35,221 nt of DNA from Chloroflexota bacterium (GTDB taxonomy: Bacteria; Chloroflexota; Chloroflexia; Chloroflexales; Chloroflexaceae), in NCBI GenBank assembly GCA_030550625.1, contig JAUQOZ010000390.1:1-35221 (forward strand), written 5' to 3'. The position numbers and the translations under genes were made by a program. The notes beneath the pieces were generated by a model that worked only from the letters and a program-made list of their open reading frames with translations, did no database searches and had not been told where the DNA came from. Shown in pieces: positions 31,401 through 32,118 of this stretch (the stretch's first letter is position 1; the number at the start of each line of letters is the position of its first letter).

Positions 31401-31874
31401 CTAGCGCACCTTGAGGATCGTCAATTTCATCACACCAGAAGGGGTATGCACCGTCACCTTATTGCGGGCACGCTTGCCAAGCAGCGCAGCACCGAGCGGC
31501 GACTCGTTCGAGATGCGGCCTTGGCGCGGGTTGGCCTCGGCGCTGCCGACAATCGTCCACGTCTCTTCCGAGCCGTCGTCTTCAAACCGGACGGTTACGG
31601 ACGAACCGACCCGTACCTCGCCGTTGCTCGCCTGATCTTCATCAATTAATTCAGCGCGCGAGAGTAGGTGCTTGAGTTCGCGAATCCGACCTTCGAGCAA
31701 GGCTTGCGCTTTCTTCGCGTCTTCGTATTCACCGCTCTCAGAAATGTCGCCCAATTCTTTGGCCGCGGCAATCCGCTCAGCGATCTGCTTGCGTTCCACG
31801 GTCATTAGGTACTCAAGCTCCGCTTCAAGGCGGGCGCGACCTTCGCGAGTCAGGTACGTCGGCTTGTCTGTCAT
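31401..31874 (-). CDS. greA: Transcription elongation factor GreA
   Basis: GreA enters the RNA polymerase secondary channel and stimulates cleavage of backtracked RNA. The N-terminal coiled coil has the catalytic acidic tip ELGDISESGEYEDAKK (D43, E46), matching GreA D41/E44. The C-terminal FKBP-like domain shows VRVGSSVTVRFEDDG, RISNESPLGAALLGKR and VTVHTPSGVMKLTIL. The length of 157 residues is normal. The ATG at 31872-31874 has AGAGGC seven bases upstream; the ORF-track GTG lies one codon earlier. The leader carries a strong promoter and a terminator-like hairpin, suggesting control by attenuation. Confidence 0.96.
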   Translation of the reverse strand: MTDKPTYLTREGRARLEAELEYLMTVERKQIAERIAAAKELGDISESGEYEDAKKAQALLEGRIRELKHLLSRAELIDEDQASNGEVRVGSSVTVRFEDDGSEETWTIVGSAEANPRQGRISNESPLGAALLGKRARNKVTVHTPSGVMKLTILKVR

Positions 31875-31926
31875 CACTACTGCCTCTACGCTGCCCGTAC
31901 CGCGCAGCCGGGCGGACGGGAAACCT

Positions 31927-31963
31927 CAATATAAAAAGAATAACTGAGAGCACATCTCTCAGT
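31927..31963 (-). terminator. Intrinsic terminator-like hairpin in the greA leader
   Basis: On the minus strand ACTGAGAG - ATGTG - CTCTCAGT (31943-31963) is a perfect 8-bp stem, followed by TATTCTTTTTATATT (31927-31942 region). It lies between the greA promoter and the greA start, so it would release an RNA of about 70-75 bases or act as an attenuator. Confidence 0.65.
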
Positions 31964-32007
31964 CGTGGCCGGGGGCGCTTTCGCAGCCTACCCCATACCT
32001 TGCCACA

Positions 32008-32036
32008 ATTATATGTGGTTGCGCGCAATTTGTAAA
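32008..32036 (-). promoter_or_regulatory. Promoter of greA
   Basis: On the minus strand TTTACA (32031-32036) and a perfect TATAAT (32008-32013) are 17 bases apart. The expected start point is near 32001, giving a leader of about 125 bases. Confidence 0.7.
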
Positions 32037-32051
32037 GACGGTTTGCATATC

Positions 32052-32080
32052 ATGGAATACTCGCACAGATATGCTATAAT
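32052..32080 (+). promoter_or_regulatory. Extended -10 promoter of ftsK
   Basis: TGCTATAAT (32072-32080) is identical to the extended -10 upstream of accD. The -35 region (about 32052-32057, atggaa) is weak. The ATG of ftsK is 39 bases after the hexamer. Confidence 0.55.
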
Positions 32081-32118
32081 CGAATTGCAGATTGTAGGCG
32101 TTAGGGAACTGAGGAGCA

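Follow-up and report, generated by a model that had tools for sequence, protein, structure and literature searches.

The closest described system is GraL of E. coli, in which a promoter, a short leader and a hairpin with a T-run lie in the 5' UTR of greA, followed by greA itself. About two thirds of the transcripts end at GraL and about one third read through; catalytically active GreA acts through GraL to repress greA, and GraL sequence both in the hairpin and ahead of it is required, the structure alone being insufficient (PMC6829880). Experiments in vitro failed to reproduce the autoregulation of GreA via GraL, and overproduction of Nus factors was without effect (PMC6829880). The available part of Naville and Gautheret 2010 (PMC2965389), on greA/rnk leaders, names no Chloroflexota and gives a clear antiterminator in each cluster, in contrast to the Chloroflexota leader, in which none was detectable. 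In B. subtilis, NusG residues N81 and T82 have been tied to pausing at TTNTTT (PMC12288461). A search of the literature on Chloroflexus or Dehalococcoides, for a greA leader or for maps of transcription starts, found nothing relevant.

Here we describe a greA leader of Chloroflexota with the same layout as GraL. A preliminary description had proposed a terminator-type hairpin before greA in this distant phylum, unrelated in sequence to GraL, and comparison with the E. coli hairpin agrees with that proposal. Attenuation of the GraL kind in a greA leader is already known; what the comparison suggests as new is a leader of unrelated sequence that is conserved across much of Chloroflexota.

Results

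The greA locus and its leader

The window, which means the whole 35,221-nt stretch analysed, comes from a Chloroflexus genome and carries the element on the minus strand, in the intergenic strip between greA and the divergent ftsK (32119, plus strand; Table 1). No Gre-family protein other than the product of greA was found in the genome; this product has the catalytic acidic pair (GDISE) and is identical in G008, a relative of the same genus. The promoter, leader, hairpin, T-run and greA reported earlier were all found again. The promoter has a 17-nt spacer and matches the consensus at 11 of 12 positions, and spacing from this conserved promoter would place the transcription start near 32001. 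The leader ahead of the hairpin is thus short, as reported, with a predicted length of ~37 nt instead of ~40. The hairpin GACTGAGAG-ATGTG-CTCTCAGTT (31964-31942, minus strand) has nine pairs, one of them a terminal G-U, where a perfect 8-bp stem had been counted. The ATG of greA lies ~57 nt past the T-run (given before as ~50) and 67 nt past the stem. No promoter-like site from which greA transcription could start downstream of the hairpin was seen on that strand.

Table 1. Features of the greA leader region in the window (positions in the window).
Feature	Position	Strand	Basis or remark
greA	31401..31874	-	TIGR01462 and NF001263 above cut-off (NCBIfam); ATG at 31874
Shine-Dalgarno AGAGG	31883..31887	-	sequence
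Second hairpin, between T-run and ribosome-binding site	31890..31920	-	seen in computed fold
Interrupted T-run ATTCTTTTTAT	31931..31941	-	contains TTCTTT (TTNTTT type); predicted 3' ends of ~70-nt leader RNA
Hairpin 3' arm CTCTCAGTT	31942..31950	-	sequence and conservation
Hairpin loop ATGTG	31951..31955	-	length differs among relatives
Hairpin 5' arm GACTGAGAG	31956..31964	-	near-invariant over the order
Leader RNA 5' part, predicted ~37 nt	31965..32001	-	sequence poorly conserved in Chloroflexus; covarying hairpin in sister genera
-10 hexamer TATAAT, greA promoter	32008..32013	-	sequence; kept in the family
-35 hexamer TTTACA, greA promoter	32031..32036	-	sequence

The element has the architecture of an intrinsic (Rho-independent) terminator, with a G+C-containing hairpin and a T-run immediately after it. 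As in the GraL arrangement, it lies between the promoter and the start of greA on the same strand, and the window holds no co-directional upstream gene. A 3' terminator of an upstream gene was ruled out, since the sole upstream neighbour, ftsK, is divergent and the neighbours differ in relatives; a genomic repeat or general terminator was likewise ruled out by the single copy in the 4.74-Mb genome. Local statistics were unremarkable: three terminator-like sites were found in the 2.5-kb neighbourhood compared with 2.8 +/- 1.7 in shuffles, and the folding energy of the leader gave z = -0.49. The hairpin stands above chance because of the comparison, being single in the genome and conserved before greA in family, order and phylum.

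Directly after the T-run, ATTGAGG (31930-31924, minus strand) is complementary to the 3' arm of the hairpin, and a similar stretch is present in 6 of 8 Chloroflexus loci. Made only after read-through, it could open the hairpin at that stage. On the other side of the promoter, GATATGCTATAATCG (32068-32082, plus strand) resembles part of a divergent ftsK promoter. Several Chloroflexus genomes keep this block; L007 and L008 lack it and have a different sequence upstream of greA.

Conservation in Chloroflexaceae and in the order

Only the promoter and the hairpin (ACTGAGAG, a loop of five bases, CTCTCAGT and the T-run) have escaped divergence in the regions upstream of greA in 30 Chloroflexaceae loci. 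CTTTACA-N17-TATAAT was present in 29 of the 30, the exception being the stretch of L020 that was read. The hairpin has been kept through insertions: in L026 an insertion separates promoter from hairpin and the distance to greA is longer, and in L041 a repeat insertion puts the hairpin ~350 nt from the start codon.

Each of the order's four families shows the hairpin before greA, with varied loop lengths and gene neighbours. It was not found in a few genomes of the order (L046, L048 and L053), and L067 gave a weak candidate only. Among 53 distinct hairpin sequences from the order, 96.9% of pair cells are standard pairs, and the seven core pairs CTGAGAG/CTCTCAG (pairs 3-9) are unbroken in all 53, with wobble or two-sided changes. 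Two-sided changes occur at three pairs; in L058 and L060, for instance, GAGAG/CUCUC has become GAGAA/UUCUC. Presence of the stem in close relatives had been set beforehand as a test of the proposal; the stem is there, with pair-preserving changes, and the T-run straight after it is retained in nearly all relatives. Terminators normally conserve structure and not sequence. The strong terminators at the 3' end of greA in the same loci served as a control, and they share no sequence even inside the window's own genus.

Sister genera have further structure in the leader. In Chloroflexaceae other than Chloroflexus (L014-L031, alignment A6), the first ~50 nt of the leader contain a covarying hairpin, AACGG..GCAGGC..GUCUGC..CCGUU, 5' of the terminator. 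In L010-L031 (alignment A5), a two-helix element, GGAGC-A-GGGYC..GRCCC-U..CUGU..GCUCC, lies ~20-90 nt before greA, between the T-run and the Shine-Dalgarno sequence; both helices covary, and the element had no Rfam match in the loci scanned. Its bulge CUGU can pair with ACAG beside the Shine-Dalgarno sequence, a possible pseudoknot and possibly a translational layer of control. Chloroflexus itself has merely a short hairpin here, in which the loop GCTGC (31908-31904) and GCAGC (31894-31890), matched by eye, form a candidate pseudoknot adjoining the Shine-Dalgarno sequence.

Distribution across Chloroflexota

We scanned 85k species genomes with the exact pattern CTGAGAG-N3-6-CTCTCAGTT followed by a T-run. 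Of the 31 matches, 27 share the strand of a greA gene and precede it, and the other four are without an adjoining greA. Four of the 27 come from MAG contigs that bear the label Anaerolineae, Anaerolineales or Chloroflexi and encode a GreA of only 44-51% identity. Outside the phylum, the scan gave no match beside greA.

A covariance model (R1) was then run on 400 genomes of the phylum at E <= 0.001 and gave exactly one match per genome in 48 of them. According to the coordinates of the greA places and tblastn, 47 of the 48 matches are directly upstream of greA; in the remaining genome (G068) a contig edge interrupts greA, and the hairpin is on a different contig. The training set of R1 includes greA hairpins from the order itself; its ten matches beyond the order are therefore the independent evidence, and every one of them lies at greA. 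In four genomes filed under other phyla, greA is present without an R1 match. As to the pattern scan, L079 (JAAUTF010000445.1), filed as a Candidatus Gracilibacteria MAG, has a Chloroflexaceae-like greA locus with 82% GreA identity; its placement is probably a binning error.

An ACUGAG-type hairpin was found in ~90 of 141 greA upstream regions, which as a share of Chloroflexota greA genes is an estimate from a non-random sample over-representing the window's own order. The script gave 92; its picks in L155, L157 and L178 are other hairpins, and L155 and L157 also bear a longer ACTGAG stem. The stem base ACUGAG/CUCAGU is constant, and the upper stem covaries (A-U to G-C at one position; 10 distinct hairpins). 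The preliminary description overlooked the chief point, that the stem is conserved across much of the phylum in its sequence and not in structure only.

Some Chloroflexota greA genes are without an ACUGAG-type hairpin. In several families, a different hairpin with a T-run occupies the same place: GCATCTCT..AGAGATGC in f19, GAACTTCAGGCG..CGCCTGGAGTTC in f33 and GGCACAG..CTGTGTC in f82. Such leader hairpins of other sequence, apparently replacements, were observed in L152, L153, L163, L164, L178 and L207. Beyond the order, 48 primary greA copies were judged by a strict rule, and 13 had a leader hairpin with a T-run, where dinucleotide shuffles gave 0.25. Another sequence type accounts for five of these 13, and some ACUGAG-type hairpins are among those counted. 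Second greA copies had such a hairpin in 1 of 11 cases. The clostridial Geosporobacter, one of the four genomes from outside the phylum without an R1 match, carries its own, different greA leader hairpin.

Comparison with known leader classes

The E. coli hairpin, ACCTGGG-ACTTGT-ACCCGGGT, has a stem without sequence similarity to that of Chloroflexota; no homology was seen by eye, and R1 had no match in the E. coli locus (L033). The two systems also differ in that the Chloroflexota stem sequence is conserved at phylum level. Rfam 15, at gathering and relaxed thresholds, gave nothing at the hairpin in the window and 14 family loci. In L145, one sub-threshold Rfam match (828-906) lies away from the hairpin.

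An upstream antiterminator was sought as contiguous pairing with the 5' arm in 57 leaders, and the mean complementarity was 4.7 nt compared with 5.0 nt in shuffles. A switch made of RNA only, by antiterminator or riboswitch, was rejected because the contiguous upstream complementarity in these 57 leaders is no higher than in shuffles.

TTNTTT was present in 68 of 92 tails compared with 54 expected from shuffled tails; the enrichment is mild, and TTNTTT was rejected as a strong conserved motif. The RNTPGV stretch of the genome's NusG presumably aligns with N81/T82 of the B. subtilis protein. By a published residue rule, this NusG is of the pro-pausing type (PMC12288461). The leader resembles the B. 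subtilis leaders with NusG-dependent pausing and termination in two points: a hairpin followed by a T-rich tract that contains TTNTTT, and the type of NusG. It differs from them in the weak enrichment of the motif relative to shuffled tails, and the likeness was read from nucleotide and protein sequences.

Discussion

The sequences show promoter, hairpin, T-run and greA in one constant order, with the hairpin under strong selection. We consider it fairly probable that the whole element is an attenuator in the greA leader, in which read-through is set by polymerase pausing and backtracking together with protein factors, GreA being the likeliest input. Transcription would begin ~37 nt before the hairpin, as judged from the conserved promoter, and would partly terminate at the T-run to release an RNA of ~70 nt. 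The fraction that reads through would most likely be governed by the pausing and backtracking state of the polymerase and its factors, since no upstream RNA antiterminator was detectable. GreA would probably feed back negatively on its own gene, as it does in E. coli, and a plausible helper would be pausing of the NusG type along the T-rich tract.

The near-invariant stem base probably has a sequence-specific role beyond helix formation, such as contact with RNA polymerase or a factor. A near-invariant stem is to be expected if the sequence is read in Chloroflexota too, as the sequence of the GraL hairpin matters in E. coli. A more specific proposal, which we regard as quite possible but hold tentatively, is that ACUGAG/CUCAGU is a signal read by RNA polymerase or a partner in the exit channel, at one gene only and kept over many deep branches, and that it is the missing specificity determinant of GreA feedback left open by the E. 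coli work.

The T-run is interrupted and the stem base is weak in A-U and G-U pairs, so polymerase might pause there and release little RNA. On such grounds, the hairpin may be only a pause or a 5'-end stabiliser that shields greA mRNA or sets the timing of its translation, without RNA release, and the further structured element before the ribosome-binding site in sister genera would fit this role. We judge this rather unlikely, given that stabilisation alone would not need a T-run, which is kept in nearly all relatives and in the replacements of other families. It is also unlikely that the released leader RNA serves mainly as a trans-acting small RNA, with the arms kept for stability or a partner and any effect on greA secondary. 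GraL does work in trans besides cis (PMC6829880), and conservation of the hairpin sequence goes far beyond what a terminator needs; however, the 5' part of the leader, where an unpaired seed would sit, is the part least conserved between genera, and the conserved letters sit in the stem.

The near-invariant arms, and a spacer of exactly five in the listed Chloroflexaceae loci, might instead point to a DNA operator with half-sites ACTGAGAG and a 5-bp spacer, at which a transcription factor would form a roadblock at about +40 of greA. The pair-keeping changes and variable loops favour RNA structure over such an operator: the spacer length varies over order and phylum, and one-sided wobble changes break the dyad symmetry of the DNA yet keep the RNA pair. 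A T-run follows the palindrome and a second genomic copy is absent, and we regard the operator as very unlikely. That hairpin and T-run arose by chance, or are kept through common descent only, agrees with the finding that terminator-like sites in the region are no commoner than in shuffles, but is scarcely credible: the hairpin was kept while flanks, gene neighbours and spacing changed and neighbouring terminators turned over, and the unbroken core pairs, the pattern scan and the R1 matches at greA contradict it.

The leader attenuator that we favour rests on one hairpin of ~20 nt, held before one gene while GreA diverged to 41-51% identity. Seen alongside the leaders of Proteobacteria, Bacilli and Clostridia, it suggests early termination as a recurrent bacterial means of controlling GreA. 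The ~90 loci form a natural alignment for finding the letters that are read by the feedback, a question left by E. coli GraL. In one locus of family f83 (L143, 480-935), the tip of GreA is GAFAE, with the first acidic residue lost, and the conserved leader hairpin is kept, which argues against a cleavage requirement there.
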